DNA of 63,483 nucleotides from Candidatus Rokuibacteriota bacterium (GTDB taxonomy: Bacteria > Methylomirabilota > Methylomirabilia > Rokubacteriales > CSP1-6). Under the pieces are notes generated by a model. It saw only the letters and a program-made list of their open reading frames with translations. It was not told the origin of the DNA and did no database searches. The stretch lies in assembly GCA_003221695.1 (NCBI GenBank), contig QHSX01000062.1, forward strand, positions 1 to 63,483, in the 5' to 3' direction. Positions 1,277-58,843 of the stretch are shown in pieces. Positions within the stretch are counted from its first letter, which is position 1, and the number at the start of each line of letters is the position of its first letter. Made by a program: the position numbers and the translations under genes.

Positions 1277-3544
<2,268 letters not shown>

Positions 3545-9287: not shown

Positions 9288-9320
9288 TTGTTTTTATAGC
9301 CTCGATAAAATATATTTATC
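9288..9320 (+). promoter_or_regulatory. lysR promoter with overlapping palindromic operator
   Basis: This is an AT-rich island in GC-rich DNA. TTGTTT (9288-9293) and TATATT (9311-9316) are spaced by 17 bases, and the start codon is 32 bases further on. The inverted repeat GATAAA-ATATA-TTTATC (9304-9320) covers the -10, as expected for a LysR-type autoregulatory site. It also lies upstream of the divergent zinc-ribbon/aceA pair, so the regulator may control both. Confidence 0.5.
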
Positions 9321-9347
9321 AGTCAGGGAAACACCGCGCGCCCAGTC

Positions 9348-10283
9348 ATGGAGATCCCTCAGGTCGAGGCGTTCCTTGCGGTCGGCACCTTCGGCGGCTT
9401 CCGCCGCGCGGCGGAGGCGCTCCGCCTCACCCAGCCGGCGGTCAGCGCCCGGATCCGGGCGCTCGAGGGATCCCTGAACGTGCGGCTCTTCGAGCGTGGC
9501 GCGCACGGCCTCGCCCTCTCCGCCGCCGGCCGGGCGCTCAGACCCCACGCCGAGCAGCTCCTCCGCGCCGTCGCCCTGGCCCGCCAGGCGGTCCACGACC
9601 TCCGGCCGGCGTCGGGGGGCGCCCTCCAGATCGCCGCGGTGCTCTCGATCTGCACGTACCTCCTGCCCGACGTGCTCAAGCGCTTCCAGGCCGCCTACCC
9701 CAAGGTCCTCATCACCGTCCGGTCGGGGCACTCGAAGGAGGTCCTCGAGATGGTGCTGCGCGCCGAGGCGGAGATCGGGCTCGCGCGTTCCCTTCACCAC
9801 CCCGAGGTCGAGACGCTCTCCCTTCGGGACGACCCGCTCGTCCTGGTCGCGCGCCCGGCCGCCTGGCCGGAACGGGAGCGGCGGGCGCGTCTCGAGGAGG
9901 TGGCGGACCGACCCCTCGTTTTCTTCGACCGCGGCTCGAGCGACTGGACGCTCACCCACGGCCTCTTCCGCCGCGCCGGGCTCGTCCCCAACGTGGCGCT
10001 CGAGGTCGAGACGATCGAGACCGCGAAGCGGATGGTCGAGCGCGGCGTCGGCTTCGCGTTCCTCCCGCACCTCGCCGTCGGGCGGGAGCTCCGCCGACGC
10101 ACGCTGGCGGCGATCGAGATCGTGGACGCCGAGCCGATCAGCCGGAGTCTCGACGTGATCCACCCGCGCGCGCGGCCGCTTTCCGGCGAGGCGCGGGCGC
10201 TGCTGGGCGTGCTGCGATCGACGCTGTCGGCGGTCGGAGGACGGGTGAGCGCCAGACGACGCGCACGCGCGGGTCGAGCCTGA
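9348..10283 (+). CDS. LysR-family transcriptional regulator
   Basis: A DNA-binding regulator of 311 residues, typical LTTR length. The N-terminal winged helix-turn-helix is clear (VEAFLAVGTFGGFRRAAEALRL then TQPAVSARIRALE, LFERGAHGLALSAAGRAL, residues 1-65), followed by a linker helix and a two-lobe effector domain (LVLVARPAAW, VERGVGFAFLPHLAVGREL). It is divergent from the zinc-ribbon/isocitrate-lyase pair, the classical LysR arrangement, so a metabolite of the glyoxylate cycle is a reasonable effector. The C-terminal tail is Arg-rich. Confidence 0.92.
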   Translation: MEIPQVEAFLAVGTFGGFRRAAEALRLTQPAVSARIRALEGSLNVRLFERGAHGLALSAAGRALRPHAEQLLRAVALARQAVHDLRPASGGALQIAAVLSICTYLLPDVLKRFQAAYPKVLITVRSGHSKEVLEMVLRAEAEIGLARSLHHPEVETLSLRDDPLVLVARPAAWPERERRARLEEVADRPLVFFDRGSSDWTLTHGLFRRAGLVPNVALEVETIETAKRMVERGVGFAFLPHLAVGRELRRRTLAAIEIVDAEPISRSLDVIHPRARPLSGEARALLGVLRSTLSAVGGRVSARRRARAGRA

Positions 10284-26882: not shown

Positions 26883-27886
26883 GGCGTCACGTACACCTTG
26901 AGCGCCTCGCGGCGTCGCATCAGGTCCACGCCGCGGTCGAGGCCGGGGAGCGTGACGCGGTGGGTGACGAGCCCGTCCACGGACACCTCGCCCGCGACGA
27001 TCAGCCGGAACGCCTCGGTGAGATCGGACGGCGACGACGAGTACGTGGCGGTCAGGGTGAGCTCGCGGTGGTAGAGCGTCTCGAGCCGGAGCGGGAGCGT
27101 GTCACCGCCGGCGGCGAAGTAGTGGAGCGTCCCGCCGTCGCGGAGGCTTGCCACCGCCCACGGCAGCACGTCCGTCCCGCCGCCGGTGACGATGACCTGG
27201 TCGGCGCCGCGTCCGCCGGAGAGCTCGCGCTGCGCGGCCGCGGCCACGGGCGCGGGCCCCGCGGCGGCCGCACCCAGGCGCCGGGCGAGCTCCGCGCGCG
27301 CGGCGATCGGATCGCATCCGACGACCGCGGCGCCGGCGTGCCGGAGGAGCTGGACGAAGAGACAACCGATCGAGCCGAGGCCGACGACGACGACCGTGTC
27401 TCCGGGAGCGACCCGCGCGCGCCGCACCGAGCGCAGACAGCACGCGAGCGGCTCGACGAACGACGCCGCCTCGTCGGTCACGTGGCGAGGCACCCGGAAC
27501 AGCGCGTGACGGACGTTTGGTGCGGGCACTCGCACGTACTCGGCGAAGCCGCCGGGGTCGAGGTTCGACGCCTTGAAGGCGCGACACATCGATTCGCTCC
27601 CCCGTCGGCAATAGTGGCAGTCGCCGCACGGGACGTGGTGGGCGGCGACGACCCGGTCACCGATCGCACAGTCGGTCACGTCCGGGCCGAGCGCGACAAT
27701 CTCGCCGACCACCTCGTGGCCGAGCACGAGTGGCACCGGTGTCGACGGGTCGACGATCTTCGCGATGTCCGAGCCGCAGAGCCCGCAGCCTAGAAGACGC
27801 AGCAGCACCTCACTGTCGCCGATCGCCGGCCGGGGCCACTCCTCGGCGATCACCTTCCCGGCGCCGCGGTAGACGGCGGCAATCAT
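26879..27886 (-). CDS. Second zinc-dependent medium-chain dehydrogenase
   Basis: 335 residues, a distant paralogue of its neighbour. LCGSDIAK (catalytic Cys), LGHEVVGE, structural-zinc CGDCHYCRRGSESMC, EPLACCLR and the Rossmann loop VVVGLGSIGCLF are visible. The start is ATG 27886, which overlaps the stop of the last micro-ORF of a family-A repeat array (ATGA). The array separates it from hpnD, suggesting co-transcription with hopanoid genes. A role in the polyol side chain of hopanoids is possible but speculative. Confidence 0.82.
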   Translation of the reverse strand: MIAAVYRGAGKVIAEEWPRPAIGDSEVLLRLLGCGLCGSDIAKIVDPSTPVPLVLGHEVVGEIVALGPDVTDCAIGDRVVAAHHVPCGDCHYCRRGSESMCRAFKASNLDPGGFAEYVRVPAPNVRHALFRVPRHVTDEAASFVEPLACCLRSVRRARVAPGDTVVVVGLGSIGCLFVQLLRHAGAAVVGCDPIAARAELARRLGAAAAGPAPVAAAAQRELSGGRGADQVIVTGGGTDVLPWAVASLRDGGTLHYFAAGGDTLPLRLETLYHRELTLTATYSSSPSDLTEAFRLIVAGEVSVDGLVTHRVTLPGLDRGVDLMRRREALKVYVTP

Positions 27887-27906
27887 GAGCTCGCCACGCC
27901 AATCAC
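27883..27906 (-). CDS. Truncated family-A micro-ORF (VIGVASS)
   Basis: Seven codons, GTG 27906 to TGA 27885-27883. Its GTG overlaps the stop of the preceding mini-ORF and its TGA overlaps the ATG of the dehydrogenase gene. It keeps the stop/start chain unbroken. Probably a coupling device with no product role. Confidence 0.3.
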   Translation of the reverse strand: MIGVASS

Positions 27907-27959
27907 AGACTCGCCTCGGCCGTCGGACGGCCTGCGGCTCGCACGGCCACGCCAATCAC
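27903..27959 (-). CDS. Family-A mini-ORF, second copy after hpnD (18 aa)
   Basis: GTG 27959 overlaps the TGA of the first copy, and its own TGA overlaps the next GTG. It encodes VIGVAVRAAGRPTAEASL, identical to the first copy. Expression is inferred from the unbroken chain of overlaps, not demonstrated. Confidence 0.45.
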   Translation of the reverse strand: MIGVAVRAAGRPTAEASL

Positions 27960-28012
27960 AGACTCGCCTCGGCCGTCGGACGGCCTGCGGCTCGCACGGC
28001 CACGCCAATCAC
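27956..28012 (-). CDS. Family-A mini-ORF, first copy after hpnD (18 aa)
   Basis: GTG 28012 overlaps the hpnD stop (GTGA). Product VIGVAVRAAGRPTAEASL. The core VRAAGR.TAEASL recurs at the mlaE>mlaF and aorA>aorC junctions. It has no recognisable domain and is too short for a fold alone. Confidence 0.45.
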   Translation of the reverse strand: MIGVAVRAAGRPTAEASL

Positions 28013-28890: not shown

Positions 28891-29882
28891 CGGGCCCTCG
28901 CGTCGCCGTGCGCGCGGAACCATTCGGTCGCGTCGCGGAGCGCCTCGCGGATATCGGTCTGCGGCAGGCCGAGCTCTCGCACCGCCTTCGCGGGGCTGAA
29001 GTACATGCGCTTCTTCGCCATCCGCACCGCCGTGAGGGGCACCCGGGGCGGTCGCCCGCCGATGCGCGCGACCGCCTCCATCGCGAGGGCGGCGCCCCAG
29101 GCGACCCAGTACGGGATCCGCACGCGCGGCGGCCGGACCCCAGTGATCTCGGAGAGGAGGACGCCGATCTCGGCGAGCGACACGTTCCGATTGCCGAGGA
29201 TGTACTTCTCGCCGATCTTCCCGCGCTCCGCCGCGAAGAGATGGCCGCGCGCGACGTCGCGCACGTGCACGAGATTGAGCCCCGTGTCGAGGGTCGCGAA
29301 CATCTTCCCCTCGAGAAAGTCCACGATCATCTGACCGGTCGGGGTCGGCTTGACGTCCCAGGGACCGACAGGCGCCGACGGGTTCACGACGACGACCGGG
29401 AGGCCCTGGTGGGCGAAGCCGAGCGCTACTTGCTCGGCGAGAAACTTGGACGCCTTGTAGGGCCCGACCATGTCCCGGAGCGAGACCGGCGTCTCCTCCG
29501 TCCCCGGCCCGCCGTCCTCCGGGATCCCGAGCGCGCCGACAGTGGAGGTGTAGACCACGCGGCTCACGCCCGCCTCGCCCGCGGCCTCGAGGACGGCGCG
29601 CGTGCCACCGACGTTGACCCGGTGGAGGTCCTCCGGGTCGCGCGCCCATAGCCGGTAGTCGGCCGCGACGTGGAAGACGAGGTTGACGCCCTTCACGGCG
29701 CGACGCACGGAGGCCGAATCCAGCAGGTCGCCCTCGCAGATCTCGACGTCGAGCCCGGCCAGCGCGCGGCGGTCGCCGCGCGGGCGCGCGAGGACGCGCA
29801 CCGAGCGGCGCTGGGCGAGAAGCTCGCGCACGACGTTCGCGCCGACGAAGCCGGTGCCCCCGGTGACGAGCGCGTCGATCAT
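28887..29882 (-). CDS. hpnA: Hopanoid-associated sugar epimerase HpnA
   Basis: An NAD-binding extended SDR (dihydroflavonol-reductase-like) found in hopanoid clusters. 331 residues: TGGTGFVGANVV (8-19), VFHVAADYRLWARDPE (the HpnA-type block), VVYTSTVGALG and the catalytic YKASKFLAE. Its exact reaction is unresolved in the family; a role in tailoring the hopanoid side chain is assumed. The ATG 29882 overlaps the stop of the fourth family-B mini-ORF, so its translation may depend on that relay from hpnG. Confidence 0.9.
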   Translation of the reverse strand: MIDALVTGGTGFVGANVVRELLAQRRSVRVLARPRGDRRALAGLDVEICEGDLLDSASVRRAVKGVNLVFHVAADYRLWARDPEDLHRVNVGGTRAVLEAAGEAGVSRVVYTSTVGALGIPEDGGPGTEETPVSLRDMVGPYKASKFLAEQVALGFAHQGLPVVVVNPSAPVGPWDVKPTPTGQMIVDFLEGKMFATLDTGLNLVHVRDVARGHLFAAERGKIGEKYILGNRNVSLAEIGVLLSEITGVRPPRVRIPYWVAWGAALAMEAVARIGGRPPRVPLTAVRMAKKRMYFSPAKAVRELGLPQTDIREALRDATEWFRAHGDARAR

Positions 29883-29968
29883 GGTAGCGGGAGCCGCGGG
29901 GCCGCCACACTCGGTGGGTGGCCCGCGACGAGGCGCGGCCCGGCTCCGTTCCGCATGGCGCTCCTCAT
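29879..29968 (-). CDS. Family-B mini-ORF 4 (29 aa), adjacent to hpnA
   Basis: ATG 29968 overlaps the stop of unit 3, and its TGA overlaps the hpnA ATG (ATGA at both ends). It contains the conserved core GPRLVAGHPPSVAAPR but ends LPLP where the others end PPVE, since its last bases belong to the hpnA leader. Start residues MRSAMRNGA. No known domain. Confidence 0.5.
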   Translation of the reverse strand: MRSAMRNGAGPRLVAGHPPSVAAPRLPLP

Positions 29969-30054
29969 TCCACCGGAGGCCGCGGGGCCGCCACACTCGG
30001 TGGGTGGCCCGCGACGAGGCGCGGCCCGGCTCCGTTCCGCATGGCGCTCCTCAT
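29965..30054 (-). CDS. Family-B mini-ORF 3 (29 aa)
   Basis: ATG 30054 overlaps the stop of unit 2 and the TGA overlaps the ATG of unit 4. It begins MRSAMRNGA, has the core GPRLVAGHPPSVAAPR and ends PPVE. The period of 86 equals 30 codons minus the four-base ATGA overlap. Confidence 0.5.
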   Translation of the reverse strand: MRSAMRNGAGPRLVAGHPPSVAAPRPPVE

Positions 30055-30140
30055 TCCACCGGAGGCCGTGGGGCCGCCACACTCGGTGGGTGGCCCGCGA
30101 CGAGGCGCGGCCCGGCTCCGTTCCGCATGGCGCTCCTCAT
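30051..30140 (-). CDS. Family-B mini-ORF 2 (29 aa)
   Basis: Same peptide as unit 3. The only nearby base change (CCG to CCA, complement of position 30069) is synonymous in this frame. ATGA overlaps at both ends. Confidence 0.5.
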   Translation of the reverse strand: MRSAMRNGAGPRLVAGHPPSVAAPRPPVE

Positions 30141-30244
30141 TCCACCGGAGGCCGCGGGGCCGCCACACTCGGTGGGTGGCCTGAGACGAGGTGCGACCCG
30201 GCTGCGTGCCGGCTAGCGCTTCTCATTTCACCGGGCTCCGTCAT
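30137..30244 (-). CDS. Family-B mini-ORF 1 (35 aa), overlapping the hpnG stop
   Basis: ATG 30244 overlaps the hpnG stop (ATGA). It has a six-residue prefix MTEPGE, then MRSASRHAAGSHLVSG and HPPSVAAPRPPVE. It is the most diverged unit of the array and shares the variant HLVSGHPP with the copy nested in the EamA gene (RLVSGHPP). Likely a translational relay from hpnG to hpnA. Confidence 0.5.
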   Translation of the reverse strand: MTEPGEMRSASRHAAGSHLVSGHPPSVAAPRPPVE

Positions 30245-33060: not shown

Positions 33061-34978
33061 GTTACCATCTGGCGTCGTGACGGTCCTCACCGACGCCATC
33101 GCCCGCGCCCAGGAGTATCTCCTCGCTCATCAAGCGCCGGACGGTCACTGGGTCGGCGAACTCGAGGCCGACACGACGATCACCTCCGAATATCTCCTGC
33201 TCGGCCACCTGATCGACCGGGTCGATCTCCACAAGGAGGCCAAGGCCGTCCAGTATCTCCGACGCGAGCAGCTCCCGGACGGCGGTTGGAGCCTCTTCGC
33301 GGGCGGCCCGATGGATCTGTCGGCCACGATCAAAGCGTACTTTGCGATGAAGCTCGCCGGCGTGGGCGTCGACGACCCCGCGCTGGTCGCGGCGCGCGAG
33401 CGCATCCGCGAAATTGGCGGGCCCGTGAAGGCCAACGTCTTCACCAAGATCCAGCTCGCGCTCTTCGGCGAGTACGACTGGAATGGCGTGCCCGCGATGC
33501 CCGTCGAGATCATGCTGCTGCCGCGACCGTTTTTCCTCTTCAACATCTACGAGGTCTCGTACTGGTCGCGGACGGTGATCGTCCCGCTCTTGATCATCAT
33601 GGATCGGAAGCCGGTGAAGTGGCTGCCGCCCCATCTGTCGCTCGACGAGCTCTGGCCCGAGCCGCGGGAGAAGACGAGCCTCCGGTTCCCCCGTGTGCCC
33701 GAGCCGTTCAGCTGGCGGAAGCTCTTCTGGAAGAACGTCTTCATCGCCGTGGACGACGGCCTTAAGATTTGGGAGCGCTTCACCACGCGCCCGCTCAGGA
33801 AGCGGGCGGTCGAGGCGGCGCGCGTGTGGCTCGAGGAGCGACTCGCCGTGCCCGGCGGCCTGGGCGGGATCTACCCTGCGATGGCCAACTCGATCCTCGC
33901 GATGCGCCTGCTCGGCTACCCCGACGACCACCCGCTGGTGCTCGGGCAGCTCAAGGAGATCGAGGCCCTCGCGGTCGAGACGGACGACGCGCTCCACTAT
34001 CAGCCGTGCCCGTCACCCGTCTGGGACACCGCGCTCGCGATCAACGCGCTGGTCGAGAGCGGGCTCCCGCCCGAGCACCCGACGCTGCGCCGTGCGGCGG
34101 AGTGGCTCATCGACCGCCAGATCCTCGTCCCGGGGGACTGGCAGAAGAAGCGGCCGCACGTCCAGCCGGGCGGTTGGGCGTTCCAGTACCGCAACGACTT
34201 CTACCCGGACCTCGACGACACCGCGATGGTGCTGATGGCGCTCGAGAAGGTGCCCGGCCTCGACGGGGACGCCGTGCGGTTGTCGAAGGAGCGCGGGCTC
34301 GGCTGGTTCTTCGGCATGCAGGGCGAGGACGGCGGCTGGGCGTCGTTCGACGCCGACAACAACCGCCTCTACCTCAACAACATTCCCTTCGCCGACCACG
34401 GCGCGCTGCTCGACCCGTCGACGGAGGACCTCACCGGGCGCGGCCTCGAGCTCCTCGGCACGCTCGGCTACCGAGGCGATTTCGAGCCGGCGCAGCGCGC
34501 GCTCCACTTCCTCCGTCACACGCAGCGACACGACGGGCCGTGGTACGGGCGCTGGGGCGTCAACTACATCTACGGCACCTGGTCCGTCCTCCGCGGACTC
34601 CGCCTGATCGGCGAAGACCTCCGCCACGAATACATCCAGCGGGCCGTGCGCTGGCTCGAGCGCCATCAGAACAGGGACGGCGGCTGGGGCGAGACGTGCG
34701 AGAGCTACAGCGATCCCGAGTTCGCTGGGGTCGGCGAGTCGACGCCCAGTCAGACGGCTTGGGCGTTGCTCGGCCTCTTCGCGGCCGGGCGCACGAGCGG
34801 CCGCGCAGTCGAGCGTGGTATCGAGTACCTCCTCGGGACGCAGCGGAACGACGGTGCGTGGGAGGACCGATTCTGGAACGGGACCGGCTTCCCGCGCGTC
34901 TTCTACCTCAAGTACCACCTCTACGCGAAGTACTTTCCCCTCTGGGCCCTGGGGATCTACCGCCGCGTCCAGGCATGA
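33059..34978 (+). CDS. shc: Squalene-hopene cyclase
   Basis: Cyclises squalene to hopene at the membrane surface. About 639 residues, normal for the family. Several QW repeats (QLPDGGWSLF, GEDGGWASFD, NRDGGWGET, RNDGAWEDRF) and the catalytic YPDLDDTAM (DXDD-type acid, about residue 383) are seen. ATG 33059 is given; GTG 33077 (TVLTDAIARAQEYLL) is equally plausible and would leave room between the divergent starts. The stop overlaps mlaE (ATGA), coupling hopene synthesis with the lipid-transport genes. Confidence 0.95.
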   Translation: MLPSGVVTVLTDAIARAQEYLLAHQAPDGHWVGELEADTTITSEYLLLGHLIDRVDLHKEAKAVQYLRREQLPDGGWSLFAGGPMDLSATIKAYFAMKLAGVGVDDPALVAARERIREIGGPVKANVFTKIQLALFGEYDWNGVPAMPVEIMLLPRPFFLFNIYEVSYWSRTVIVPLLIIMDRKPVKWLPPHLSLDELWPEPREKTSLRFPRVPEPFSWRKLFWKNVFIAVDDGLKIWERFTTRPLRKRAVEAARVWLEERLAVPGGLGGIYPAMANSILAMRLLGYPDDHPLVLGQLKEIEALAVETDDALHYQPCPSPVWDTALAINALVESGLPPEHPTLRRAAEWLIDRQILVPGDWQKKRPHVQPGGWAFQYRNDFYPDLDDTAMVLMALEKVPGLDGDAVRLSKERGLGWFFGMQGEDGGWASFDADNNRLYLNNIPFADHGALLDPSTEDLTGRGLELLGTLGYRGDFEPAQRALHFLRHTQRHDGPWYGRWGVNYIYGTWSVLRGLRLIGEDLRHEYIQRAVRWLERHQNRDGGWGETCESYSDPEFAGVGESTPSQTAWALLGLFAAGRTSGRAVERGIEYLLGTQRNDGAWEDRFWNGTGFPRVFYLKYHLYAKYFPLWALGIYRRVQA

Positions 34979-35769
34979 CGGAGCGGCCGCTCCCGCTGGT
35001 GCTGCGTCCGCTGGATGCGATCGGGCGGGGGGCGATCGCGGTCGTCGAGGCGCTGGGCCGCTTCGGGATGTTCCTGGCGGAGGCGCTCGGGACGCTCCTG
35101 ACCCCGCCGTTCAAATTCTGGGCGTTCATCGACCGGATCAACTACATCGGGTACCGATCGCTCCTGATCATCCTGCTGACCGGCGGGTTCACGGGCATGG
35201 TGCTCGGCCTCCAGGTGTATTTCACGCTCGTCCGCTTCGGGTCCGAGGCGTACCTCGGGCCCGCCGTCGCGCTCTCCCTCATCCGGGAGCTCGGCCCGGT
35301 GCTGGCGGCGCTCATGGTGACGGGACGCGCGGGGTCGGCACTCACGGCCGAGATCGGCATCATGCGCATCACCGAGCAGATCGACGCGCTCACGGTCATG
35401 GCGCTGAACCCGGTCCGCTATCTCGTCGCGCCCTCCATCCTGGCCGGTCTCGTGACGTTCCCGCTCATGACCGCGATCTTCGACACGGTCGGCATCTTCG
35501 GAGGCTACCTCGTCGGCGTCGAGCTCCTCGGGCTCTCCCAGGGCACCTATTTCGGCGAGATGCAGACCTTCGTCGATCTCAACGACATCATGATGGGGTT
35601 CTGGAAGTCGCTCTCGTTCGGCGTGCTCGTCACGTGGGTCTGCACCTACAAGGGCTTCCACGTGGGCCACGGCGCAGAGGGCGTCGCCAAGGCGACCACC
35701 GACGCGGTCGTCCTGTCCTCCGTGCTCATCCTGGTCTGGGACTACTTCATGGGCACGGTGCTCCCGTGA
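34975..35769 (+). CDS. mlaE: MlaE-type ABC transporter permease
   Basis: Inner-membrane permease of the Mla/Mce phospholipid transporter. 264 residues with five to six membrane helices and the MlaE signature GLQVYFTLVRFGSEAYLGPAV, ELGPVLAALMVTGRAGSALTAEIG, and EQIDALTVMALNPVRYLVAPS. It overlaps the end of shc. Together with MlaF, MlaD, MlaC and HpnN it suggests transport of hopanoids or phospholipids between membranes. Confidence 0.94.
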   Translation: MTERPLPLVLRPLDAIGRGAIAVVEALGRFGMFLAEALGTLLTPPFKFWAFIDRINYIGYRSLLIILLTGGFTGMVLGLQVYFTLVRFGSEAYLGPAVALSLIRELGPVLAALMVTGRAGSALTAEIGIMRITEQIDALTVMALNPVRYLVAPSILAGLVTFPLMTAIFDTVGIFGGYLVGVELLGLSQGTYFGEMQTFVDLNDIMMGFWKSLSFGVLVTWVCTYKGFHVGHGAEGVAKATTDAVVLSSVLILVWDYFMGTVLP

Positions 35770-35780
35770 GAGCCGCGTGA
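35766..35780 (+). CDS. Micro-ORF VRAA at the mlaE stop
   Basis: GTG AGA GCC GCG TGA. The GTG overlaps the mlaE stop and the TGA overlaps the start of the first full family-A unit. It resembles the beginning of the family-A core (VRAAGR), probably a decayed unit that keeps the chain. Confidence 0.25.
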   Translation: MRAA

Positions 35781-35830
35781 TGGTGGCCGTGCGAGCCGCA
35801 GGCCGTGCGACGGCCGAGGCGAGTCTGTGA
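35777..35830 (+). CDS. Family-A mini-ORF 1 before mlaF (17 aa)
   Basis: GTG-ATG start (35777/35780), product VMVAVRAAGRATAEASL, TGA at 35828-35830 overlapping the next GTG/ATG. It shares the VRAAGR.TAEASL core with the other junctions but has Ala at the variable position. Confidence 0.45.
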   Translation: MMVAVRAAGRATAEASL

Positions 35831-35876
35831 TGGTGGCCGTGCGAGCCGCAGGCCGTGCGACGGCCGAGGCGAGTCT
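35777..35876. repeat. Family-A tandem repeat, 2 x 50 bp
   Basis: Units 35777-35826 and 35827-35876 are identical. Each contains the inverted repeat GGCCGT-GCG-ACGGCC. The GTG of a third, absent unit is the mlaF start codon, so the array ends exactly at the gene start. Confidence 0.93.
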
Positions 35877-35880
35877 GTGA
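35827..35880 (+). CDS. Family-A mini-ORF 2 before mlaF (17 aa)
   Basis: Identical to the previous unit. Its TGA (35878-35880) overlaps the GTG start of mlaF (35877-35879), and its GAGGCGAG could act as the mlaF ribosome-binding site. Confidence 0.45.
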   Translation: MMVAVRAAGRATAEASL

Positions 35881-36620
35881 TTAAGATCGAGCGGCTCGTC
35901 AAGTCGTTCGGGAGCCAGCAGGTCTTGCGCGGGCTCGACCTCGAGGTCGCCACCGGCTCGATCACGGTGATCATCGGCCGGAGCGGCGGCGGCAAGTCGG
36001 TCCTCCTCCGGCACCTGATCGGGCTCCTGCGCCCCGACGGGGGCCGCGTGCTCGTCAATGGCGCGGACGTCACCAGGCTCGGCGGGCGCGCGCTCGACGA
36101 GGTCCGGCGGCGCTACGGGGTTGTCTTCCAGGGCGGCGCGCTGTTCGACTCGATGACGTGCGCCGCCAACGTGGCGTTCCCCCTCCGGGAAAATCTTCGA
36201 TTGCCCGCCGCGGAGGTCGCGACGCGGGTGGAGGCGTCGCTCGCCCAGGTGGGGCTCGAGGGCATGGGGAGCAAGTACCCGGCGGAGGTTTCGGGCGGCA
36301 TGCGCAAGCGCGTCGCGATCGCGCGCGCGCTCGTCACCGAGCCCGAGATTGTCTTCTTCGACGAGCCGACCACGGGCCTCGACCCGATCCTCGTCAACAC
36401 GATCCACCACCTGGTCCTCAACCTCCACCGGAAGCTCCGGTTCACCGCCGTCATGGTGAGCCACGAGATTCCCGAGATCTTCGAGATCGCCGACGCCGTC
36501 GCCATGCTGCACGACGGGCGGATCGTGGAGGTCGGGCCGCCGGGGGTCATCCAGGCGTCGCCGAACCGGGTCGTCCGGCAGTTCATCCGCGGCGAGCCGG
36601 AAGGCGCGGAGGGAGCCTGA
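35877..36620 (+). CDS. mlaF: MlaF-type ABC transporter ATPase
   Basis: Cytoplasmic ATPase of the Mla transporter. 247 residues from GTG 35877 (VIKIERLVKSFG). Walker A GRSGGGKS, Q-loop VVFQGGALFD, signature VSGGMRKRVAIARAL, Walker B IVFFDEPTTGLDP and a switch His (SHE) are all present. The start codon and likely Shine-Dalgarno come from the family-A repeat. Upstream in-frame codons are repeat sequence and are not counted. Confidence 0.94.
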   Translation: MIKIERLVKSFGSQQVLRGLDLEVATGSITVIIGRSGGGKSVLLRHLIGLLRPDGGRVLVNGADVTRLGGRALDEVRRRYGVVFQGGALFDSMTCAANVAFPLRENLRLPAAEVATRVEASLAQVGLEGMGSKYPAEVSGGMRKRVAIARALVTEPEIVFFDEPTTGLDPILVNTIHHLVLNLHRKLRFTAVMVSHEIPEIFEIADAVAMLHDGRIVEVGPPGVIQASPNRVVRQFIRGEPEGAEGA

Positions 36621-37060
36621 TGGAGCGAACGCGGGTCAACGTCACGGTCGGGCTGTTCGTGCTCATCGGGATGCTGGCGTTGGGCTACCTTTCGGTGAAC
36701 CTCGGACGTGTGTCGTTCCTGGGCGGGGTGGGCTATCGGGTCACCGCCGAGTTCCCGTCGGTCGGCGGGCTGAAGCCCGGGTCGACGGTGGAGATCGCGG
36801 GCGTCGAGATCGGGCGCGTGGAGTCGATCGCGTTGAAGGACTACCAGGCGCTCGTGACGCTCCGGATCGATTCGCGCATCAAGCTGCAGGAAGACTCGAT
36901 CGCATCGATCAAGACGAAGGGGCTGATCGGGGAGAAGTACTTGCGTATCAGTCCGGGTGGATCGGAGAAGATCATCCCGCCCGGCGGACGAATCCGAGAG
37001 GTCGAAGCGCCGGTCGACTTCGAGGAGCTGCTGTCCAAGTACATCTTCGGCAAGGTCTAA
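36620..37060 (+). CDS. mlaD: MlaD/MCE-domain substrate-binding protein
   Basis: A single MCE domain anchored by an N-terminal helix (VGLFVLIGMLALGYLSV), projecting into the periplasm to form the hexameric lipid channel. 146 residues with FPSVGGLKPGSTVEIAGVEIGRV and IKTKGLIGEKYLRISPGG. The start overlaps the mlaF stop (TGATG). Confidence 0.93.
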   Translation: MERTRVNVTVGLFVLIGMLALGYLSVNLGRVSFLGGVGYRVTAEFPSVGGLKPGSTVEIAGVEIGRVESIALKDYQALVTLRIDSRIKLQEDSIASIKTKGLIGEKYLRISPGGSEKIIPPGGRIREVEAPVDFEELLSKYIFGKV

Positions 37061-56898: not shown

Positions 56899-58226
56899 AC
56901 GGCCACCGGAGTGTTCCCGGGCGCCTTGGACGGACGGCCCAGGATGGTTTCGGGGAGCAGCGCGCTCGTGGTCTTCGAGGCGATGAAGGCCGGCTTGACG
57001 TCGAAGGGGTTCCGCTTGAGGTGCGCCTTGAAGCGCGCCAGCGACACGCCGGACTGCACGAGTCCCTTGAGCATACCGACGTCGTTGGTCGTCCAGATGT
57101 CGCTCGACGGGCCCAGGATGATCGCGCCCGTCAGGCGGTCGCCGCGCCAGAGGAGCTTCCGGTAGGCGGGCCGGTCGGGCTTGACGCCGCTCGCTGCCTC
57201 CGCCTTCGCGTCGTCCCACGCGCCGAACGACGCGACGTCGAGGTGGCAGACCTCGACGATGTTGACGATGAGGCTGCCACGGTAGCCGACGTCCTTGCCG
57301 GCCATATTGGCGCCGGCCACCCGCCCGTGCTCCTGGGCGGTCGGCTCGATCGCGTGGACCGCCGGCTCCCCCGTGATGAGATCGCGTCCCTCGGCGATGT
57401 CACCCGCGGCGTAGACGTTCCGGACACTCGAGCGCAAGTGGTCGTCCACGACGACGCCGCGATTGACCGTGACGCCGGACCCCTTGAGCCACTCGAGGTT
57501 CGTCTTGATGCCCGTCGCCATGATCACGACGTCGCAGAGGATGTCGCCGCCGGCGGCGAAGCGGAGCCGCTTGCGTCCCTTGGCGTCCTCGATCCCTGTG
57601 AGCTTGACGCCGGTCCGGATACGGACGCCGTGCTTCGTGAGCCAGTCCTCCACGAGCTTCGCCCCCGCGTCGTCGATCATGCGCGGCAGGATGCGCGGCG
57701 CCACCTCGACGATCGTCAGCGTGGCGCCGAGCGCGAGGATCGAGTTCAGGATCGTGAAGGCGATGAAGCCGGCGCCGACCATGACGACGTGGCTGCCGGG
57801 TCCGATCTCGGCGAGGACCGCGCGCGCCTCGTCGAGGGTCCAGAACGAGTGGACGCCGCGTCCATCGGCGCCGTCCACCGGCGCCTTCACCGCCGACGAG
57901 CCCGTGGCGATCAGACAGTCGTCGTACTCGACGGTCGTCCCGTCGTCGAGCGTGCACACGTTGGCCTTGGTGTCGAGCGCCGTCGCGCGGCGCCCGACCT
58001 GCGCCTTCACGCCCCAGTCCGCGAGCACGCGCGGCGTCGCCGTGAACACGTGGGACTCGGCGATCGAGCGGTCCAGGTAGTACGGGAGGACCATGCGCGA
58101 GTACGGCCGCTCGGCGCTCACCAGCACGATCTCCGAGCGCTCGCCCTCCTCCTCGCGGATCGTCCGGATCGCGTTCATGCCCGCCGTGCCGCCGCCGATG
58201 ATGAGGTGCCGTGCGGCCATCGTCAC
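56895..58226 (-). CDS. FAD/NAD(P)-dependent oxidoreductase subunit (AorC-like)
   Basis: 443 residues with two Rossmann folds: IIGGGTAGMNAI (FAD) and VVMVGAGFIAFTILNSI (NAD), and the late FAD loop NVYAAGDIAEG. A nitrite-reductase/rubredoxin-reductase-type flavoprotein that would link AOR electrons to NAD. GTG 58226 overlaps the last family-A micro-ORF stop (GTGA); ATG 58220 with better spacing to GAGG is an alternative. Confidence 0.85.
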   Translation of the reverse strand: MTMAARHLIIGGGTAGMNAIRTIREEEGERSEIVLVSAERPYSRMVLPYYLDRSIAESHVFTATPRVLADWGVKAQVGRRATALDTKANVCTLDDGTTVEYDDCLIATGSSAVKAPVDGADGRGVHSFWTLDEARAVLAEIGPGSHVVMVGAGFIAFTILNSILALGATLTIVEVAPRILPRMIDDAGAKLVEDWLTKHGVRIRTGVKLTGIEDAKGRKRLRFAAGGDILCDVVIMATGIKTNLEWLKGSGVTVNRGVVVDDHLRSSVRNVYAAGDIAEGRDLITGEPAVHAIEPTAQEHGRVAGANMAGKDVGYRGSLIVNIVEVCHLDVASFGAWDDAKAEAASGVKPDRPAYRKLLWRGDRLTGAIILGPSSDIWTTNDVGMLKGLVQSGVSLARFKAHLKRNPFDVKPAFIASKTTSALLPETILGRPSKAPGNTPVAV

Positions 58227-58252
58227 AGCCTCGCTCGCGCAGCCAGGGCCAT
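58223..58252 (-). CDS. Shortened family-A micro-ORF (MALAARARL)
   Basis: Nine codons, ATG 58252 to TGA 58225-58223. Looks like a family-A unit with 24 bases of its centre removed in frame (MALA...RL against MALAVRAAGRSTAEASL). Overlaps the previous stop and the aorC-like start. Confidence 0.3.
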   Translation of the reverse strand: MALAARARL

Positions 58253-58305
58253 CATAGACTCGCCTCGGCCGTCGAACGGCCTGCGGCTCGTACGGCCAGA
58301 GCCAT
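58252..58305 (-). CDS. Family-A mini-ORF 2 before aorC (17 aa)
   Basis: ATG 58305 shares one base with the preceding TGA (TGATG). Product MALAVRAAGRSTAEASL, with Ser at the variable position. Two extra codons relative to unit 1 account exactly for the six-base length difference, so the frame is kept. Confidence 0.45.
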   Translation of the reverse strand: MALAVRAAGRSTAEASL

Positions 58306-58352
58306 CATAGACTCGCCTCGGCCGTCGGACGGCCTGCGGCTCGTACGGCCAT
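58305..58352 (-). CDS. Family-A mini-ORF 1 after aorA (15 aa)
   Basis: ATG 58352 shares one base with the FeS-gene stop (TGATG). Product MAVRAAGRPTAEASL. Codons differ synonymously from the copies near hpnD (GTA for GTG, CTA for CTG). Confidence 0.45.
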   Translation of the reverse strand: MAVRAAGRPTAEASL

Positions 58353-58843
58353 CACCGCGCCCCCACGAGCACGCGGGCCGTCCGCTCCCGCGCGAACTCG
58401 CCGAGCCAGTCGGCCGTCGCCGTCGCCTCGTACGTGATCGCCGCGGTCGGACACGCCTCGGCGCAGGCCGGAGCGCCGCCGCACAGGTTGCATTTGAACG
58501 CCTTACGGGTGTCCGGGTCGTAGAACATCGTCCCGTACGGGCACGCGATCGTGCAGAGCTTGCACCCCACGCACGTGTCGTCGAGCACGTCCTTCGCGCC
58601 GGCTGCGTTGATCGTGATCGCGCCGACCGGACACGCCGTCATGCACCACCCCTCGGCGCACTGCGTGCACGTGTACGGCGCGTACGAGGTGTGCCCCTCG
58701 AAGGGCGACACGCGGATGACCGACTTTGCGGGGTGGAAGGCGCCCGTCTGCATGTACGAGCAGGCCAGCTCGCACCGGAGACAGCCGGTGCACTTCTCGG
58801 GGTGGATGCGGAGGACGTTCGTCGTGGTCGCGGGCATGGTCAT
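58352..58843 (-). CDS. Four-cluster ferredoxin subunit (AorA-like)
   Basis: 163 residues, 16 cysteines in four [4Fe-4S] motifs: CTGCLRCELAC, CTQCAEGWCMTACP, CVGCKLCTIACP, CNLCGGAPACAEACP. An HycB/AorA-type electron wire between the tungsten subunit and the flavoprotein. ATG 58843 overlaps the GYD-domain gene stop. Confidence 0.88.
   Translation of the reverse strand: MTMPATTTNVLRIHPEKCTGCLRCELACSYMQTGAFHPAKSVIRVSPFEGHTSYAPYTCTQCAEGWCMTACPVGAITINAAGAKDVLDDTCVGCKLCTIACPYGTMFYDPDTRKAFKCNLCGGAPACAEACPTAAITYEATATADWLGEFARERTARVLVGAR

Follow-up and report, generated by a model that had tools for sequence, protein, structure and literature searches.

The two units that separate mlaE from mlaF in the window (the whole stretch of 63,483 nucleotides that was analysed) are, in our judgement, quite probably short interspersed repeats in tandem, of a kind that goes into NTGA stop-start overlaps and leaves the neighbouring genes coupled. 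Each unit is most likely a translationally transparent insertion. It would combine a core with a duplicate of six target nucleotides (RTGANN, comprising the start codon and the codon after it). The core has one open frame, which ends at the TGA of the following NTGA, and this turns each unit into a mini-ORF with a 4-nt overlap to its neighbours. With two copies of the stop-start overlap and a short open frame between them, ribosomes could pass by termination-reinitiation: a ribosome ending mlaE would reinitiate on a micro-ORF, then on unit 1 and unit 2, and finally on mlaF. The insertion would thus be tolerated, with mlaF translation still tied to mlaE, and arrays would gain or lose whole units.

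Anatomy of the mlaE-mlaF junction

The gene for the permease of the lipid transporter, mlaE (34975 to 35769, plus strand; PF02405, E 5.6e-79; TIGR00056 above cut-off), ends on a TGA at 35767-35769 that lies within a GTGA (35766-35769). From this GTGA starts the micro-ORF VRAA* (GTG AGA GCC GCG TGA; 35766 to 35780, plus strand), already spotted in an earlier reading of the DNA from its letters (the sequence-only reading), which overlaps by 4 nt with the mlaE stop as well as with the start of unit 1. Two 50-bp units that are 100% identical, at 35777-35826 and 35827-35876, then lie between mlaE and mlaF. The same reading had placed the two identical units after the mlaE stop; the units themselves are there, but a 7-nt remnant, GAGCCGC (35770-35776), intervenes between the stop and the first full unit. 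GAGCCGC is also present in the core, and the micro-ORF is probably the remnant of a truncated unit.

In the frame that runs from GTGA to GTGA, the 50-bp unit translates to VMVAVRAAGRATAEASL followed by a stop. Both mini-ORFs have 17 codons (unit 1, 35777 to 35830; unit 2, 35827 to 35880; plus strand), and the GTGA that closes the second one is the start of the ABC ATPase gene mlaF, which begins with a GTG at 35877 (35877 to 36620, plus strand; PF00005, E 1.5e-31; best NCBIfam match MlaF PRK11831, below cut-off). It is followed by mlaD (36620 to 37060, plus strand; TIGR04430 OM_asym_MlaD above cut-off; PF02470). Counted from mlaE, the chain consists of 4, 17, 17, and then 247 codons (mlaF), and since a GTGA stop-start overlap is found at every boundary, mlaE is linked to mlaF through the micro-ORF and the two mini-ORFs by −4 overlaps without a break. 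The interval 35766-35880, which had been singled out as the repeat region, indeed has the first and the last GTGA as its exact limits, and the GTG opening each unit coincides with the mlaF start at the end of the array, as had been proposed. When the interior of the array was shuffled, the chain from mlaE arrived at the mlaF start in 0.6% of trials. Every unit of the array also carries a GAGG 7 nt before the next start, and the copy that precedes the mlaF GTG (35866 to 35869, plus strand) is Shine-Dalgarno-like in sequence.

The junction in related genomes

A MlaE orthologue was found in 53 of the 56 family genomes, of which the best 30 junctions were read. All 30 agree in the codon at which the homology of MlaF begins. 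Eight of these genomes (G009, G013, G016, G034, G035, G073, G077, and G078) have no insert and a direct mlaE/mlaF GTGA overlap, 11 have one or more units of a repeat recognisable as the short, middle, or long subfamily, and the other 11 have spacers of 4-19 nt in which no repeat is recognisable. As the insert-free relatives share the MlaF start, this codon is ancestral: it predates the repeat, and the insert duplicated it. According to the sequence-only reading, mlaF owes its start codon and its ribosome-binding site to the repeat. For the start codon, this does not stand in general and holds only for the copy of the mlaF start in present use. The leader, in contrast to the start codon, does change with the insert, because the sequence upstream of mlaF at empty sites is mlaE coding sequence.

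As to the ribosome-binding site, the GAGG is found 7 nt upstream of the GTG as described, but the energy of the anti-Shine-Dalgarno duplex is similar with and without the repeat, namely −6.3 kcal/mol with the repeat versus −7.0 kcal/mol at empty sites. The anti-Shine-Dalgarno CCTCC tail pattern was found in seven family genomes, a 16S gene having been sought for the tail of the genome itself and not found in this assembly. A stronger Shine-Dalgarno sequence as a gain from the repeat is therefore unsupported by the duplex energies. That the repeat affects the level of MlaF, as had also been suggested, is possible, and such an effect might include an attenuation with unit number.

One of the 11 repeat-bearing junctions, that of G007, contains an assembly gap inside its array. 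The remaining ten arrays are completely assembled, and all ten have a mini-ORF chain that continues without interruption to the start of mlaF. Three of these chains (G020, G062, and G065) are entered not via a −4 overlap but at the first start that follows or spans the mlaE stop. The multi-unit chains of G000 and G020 were kept in just 0.6-0.7% of shuffles. At single-unit junctions the frame stays open in 0.69-0.83 of shuffles (at the same length), so that their open frame is likely to occur by chance in such GC-rich DNA. The number of units at the junction differs among close relatives, with the reservation that the genomes are fragmented, mostly metagenome-derived assemblies and unit counts may therefore be wrong.

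Distribution and make-up of the repeat family

The mlaE-mlaF units are one subfamily of a dispersed repeat family. In this genome, 61 matches to the pattern GCGAGCCGNAG...GAGGCGAG were counted, a few of which overlap. A stricter pattern occurs in 48 of the 57 genomes of the taxonomic family versus none of the 38 other genomes of the phylum, its reversed form giving almost no matches, and exact matches to the 33-nt core in a public genome collection all come from Rokubacteria. The commonest periods are 44, 50, 53, 63, and 65 bp, with conserved ends and a variable middle. Core lengths are 38, 44, or 59 nt for the most frequent subfamilies and mostly 2 mod 3. In the literature consulted, we found no prior work on repeats in Rokubacteria, and a transposase for the repeats was not identified; the REP-associated Y1 transposase (PF01797) is absent from the genome itself, the same search being positive in 5 of 14 control genomes.

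Some variants of the repeat were seen in passing. Short units can be nested within a long unit, giving a composite repeat (L140, L143, L154, L155, and others). At L114, L126, L134, and L143, copies end in ..CTATAAT and make a −10-like TATAAT at the junction, which possibly supplies part of a promoter. Within the window, a single copy of the long subfamily (2234-2281, minus strand) follows an open frame and ends in TATAA, not in NTGA.

Other arrays of the window

All four long-period arrays of the window are mini-ORF chains on the strand of the flanking genes, whereas a random 40-90 bp segment taken as tandem unit yields such a mini-ORF in 10.8% of trials. Two of the arrays belong to the same family as the mlaE-mlaF units, are built from 53-bp units, and span from gene stop to gene start. 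One (27883 to 28012, minus strand) leads from a squalene/phytoene synthase-like gene to a zinc alcohol dehydrogenase-like gene and contains 18-codon mini-ORFs together with a 7-codon partial ORF; the other (58223 to 58355, minus strand) has ATGA junctions and lies between a 4Fe-4S gene and a pyridine nucleotide-disulphide oxidoreductase gene. The synthase-dehydrogenase junction is filled in G000, G001, and G003 and empty in their congener G002 (gccgcATGATCGCGGCC), as it is, with RTGA overlaps, in at least 17 other genomes.

The fourth array (29879 to 30244, minus strand) represents a second, sequence-distinct family. Its four 86-bp copies form 29-codon mini-ORFs with ATGA junctions and connect an ORF ending at 30241 to an epimerase-like gene starting at 29882; the chain starts at an ATGA, continues with 35 codons and three times 29 codons, and ends at the ATG of the epimerase-like gene. 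In G001, the period of this family at the same place is 83 bp, and both 86 and 83 are 2 mod 3. Dispersed copies of the second family are present in G000 and G001, and other copies of it also join genes via ATGA.

Placement, frame, and insertion mark

Placement was evaluated for 83 arrays from G000, G001, and G003. An NTGA directly follows the core in 63 of these arrays; about a quarter lack an NTGA end, and we count them against the explanation proposed here. According to a codon-usage frame test, the downstream gene is co-oriented with 73 of 79 arrays, and the end of the array falls on the start frame of the downstream gene in 28 of the 34 testable arrays (those that are NTGA-ended and do not run into a further repeat), for which chance would give about 1 in 6. 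The codon-usage test was used in place of an ORF of at least 100 codons after the array, which is weak proof of a gene start here, given that a frame of this length opens at 39% of all NTGA sites. Of the distinct NTGA-ended cores, 35 of 39 have a length of 2 mod 3, as a mini-ORF requires if it is to close on the next TGA, and a complete NTGA-to-NTGA frame was found by a strict test in only 54 of 133 units.

The two ends of the last unit agree far above permutation at positions 0, 4, and 5 of NTGANN (p < 5e-5) but not at positions 6-8 (p 0.52), which fits a 6-bp target duplication, RTGANN. The 6-bp direct repeat thus suggests a transposition mechanism in which insertion would duplicate the target. 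Some copies are not at a gene junction, or are nested in another copy at a target lacking NTGA; as the nested copies carry an NTGA all the same, this motif may be partly element-borne. A tandem unit of G003 (L168, minus strand, approximately 9311-9390) takes in 21 bp of the dehydrogenase gene start, as opposed to the usual 6-bp duplication.

Alternative explanations

It could be argued that these are neutral, generic GC-rich interspersed repeats that land anywhere and are found only where they are harmless, the mini-ORFs and NTGA overlaps being by-products of few stop codons and of the −4 overlaps that are common in operons. Copies off gene junctions or inside other copies would be expected in that case, and so would single-unit frames that are open in 69-83% of shuffles. 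What such neutrality leaves unexplained, however, are the frequencies of NTGA ends (63/83), start-frame placement (28/34), and co-orientation (73/79), the multi-unit chains of G000 and G020 that survive so few shuffles (0.6-0.7%), and the existence of a second family with the same grammar. The partial map of NTGA and start-frame placement obtained here already points against it, and we consider it unlikely. The repeats could also act as a copy-number switch, in which the number of units tunes MlaF via weak reinitiation steps or the GAGG and is kept by selection. Both the difference in unit number at mlaE-mlaF among close relatives and the GAGG that each unit sets 7 nt before the next start are in line with such tuning; nevertheless, the duplex energies are no different from those at empty sites and arrays also occur at unrelated genes, which makes a switch of this kind rather improbable, if somewhat conceivable.

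A function at the RNA level was weighed as well, since REP/BIME hairpins can protect, process, or terminate a transcript and the middle segments of the units are palindromic, with a folding energy of −34 kcal/mol for the long subfamily. Compared with shuffles, however, the units fold no better (z −0.10, −1.34, −1.04, and 0.02), and an Rfam search of the repeat returned no match, for which reasons an identity as structured RNA was rejected. A hairpin function would furthermore leave the placement relative to frame and start codon unexplained and appears very unlikely.

Relation to known repeat elements

The closest parallel is provided by the mycobacterial interspersed repetitive units (MIRUs), which are apparently mobile, tandem-prone short repeats that insert at start codons and carry an ORF that is coupled, at a spacing of −4, to the gene (PMC12548453, review), with a copy number that varies between strains (PMC3635867). 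The Rokubacteria repeat seems to work like a MIRU, as a likeness in organisation rather than a demonstrated membership. It shares with MIRUs the insertion at NTGA stop-start overlaps of co-oriented genes (as seen from the NTGA ends, the start frames, and the empty GTGA/ATGA sites), the small unit ORF with a 4-nt overlap to its neighbours (at mlaE-mlaF and in the other arrays of the window, the strict test having passed 54 of 133 units as complete), and a number of tandem units that varies from one relative to another at a given site. Unlike MIRUs, it belongs to another phylum, has units of 44, 50, 53, 63, and 65 bp, has relatives that also lie in frame inside proteins, and coexists with an unrelated second family.

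Coupling-preserving repeats were known from mycobacteria, and the same grammar is seen here in an uncultivated phylum and in two unrelated families. Together with the empty sites and the apparent target duplication, this points to stop-start overlaps as a refuge that small mobile elements use generally. More tentatively, two or more unrelated families of mobile repeats could form a guild in Rokubacteria, each with an evolved mini-ORF cassette that uses termination-reinitiation at NTGA overlaps and makes insertion into operons translationally silent or tunable through copy number; in that case, MIRUs would exemplify a broader class of mobile elements that preserve coupling. We hold this reading to be plausible yet short of probable. 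The natural 0-, 1-, 2-, and 3-unit alleles of one operon junction allow testing how far coupling reaches through chained mini-ORFs.

As small, dispersed, palindromic, GC-rich units that are often clustered, the repeats also resemble REP/BIME elements. They differ from REP/BIME with RAYT in the start-codon, in-frame placement, in the apparent 6-bp target duplication, and in the absence of the Y1 transposase from this genome, on which ground a REP/RAYT identity was rejected. The short Rickettsia palindromic elements (RPE) likewise have one open frame in their core, and some copies are fused in frame into unrelated proteins (PMC10969869). RPE are about 150 bp long and mainly intragenic, whereas the Rokubacteria units mostly have 44-65 bp, outside the RPE length, and most copies in the studied genus are found at gene junctions, ending on the next start codon. 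A resemblance to RPE is seen in other genera and not at mlaE-mlaF: there, the VRAA element lies in frame in grpE (L018, L019, and L026) and in the gene for a copper-type P-type ATPase (L014 and L017), adding a VRAAGxxTAEAS segment to the respective proteins.
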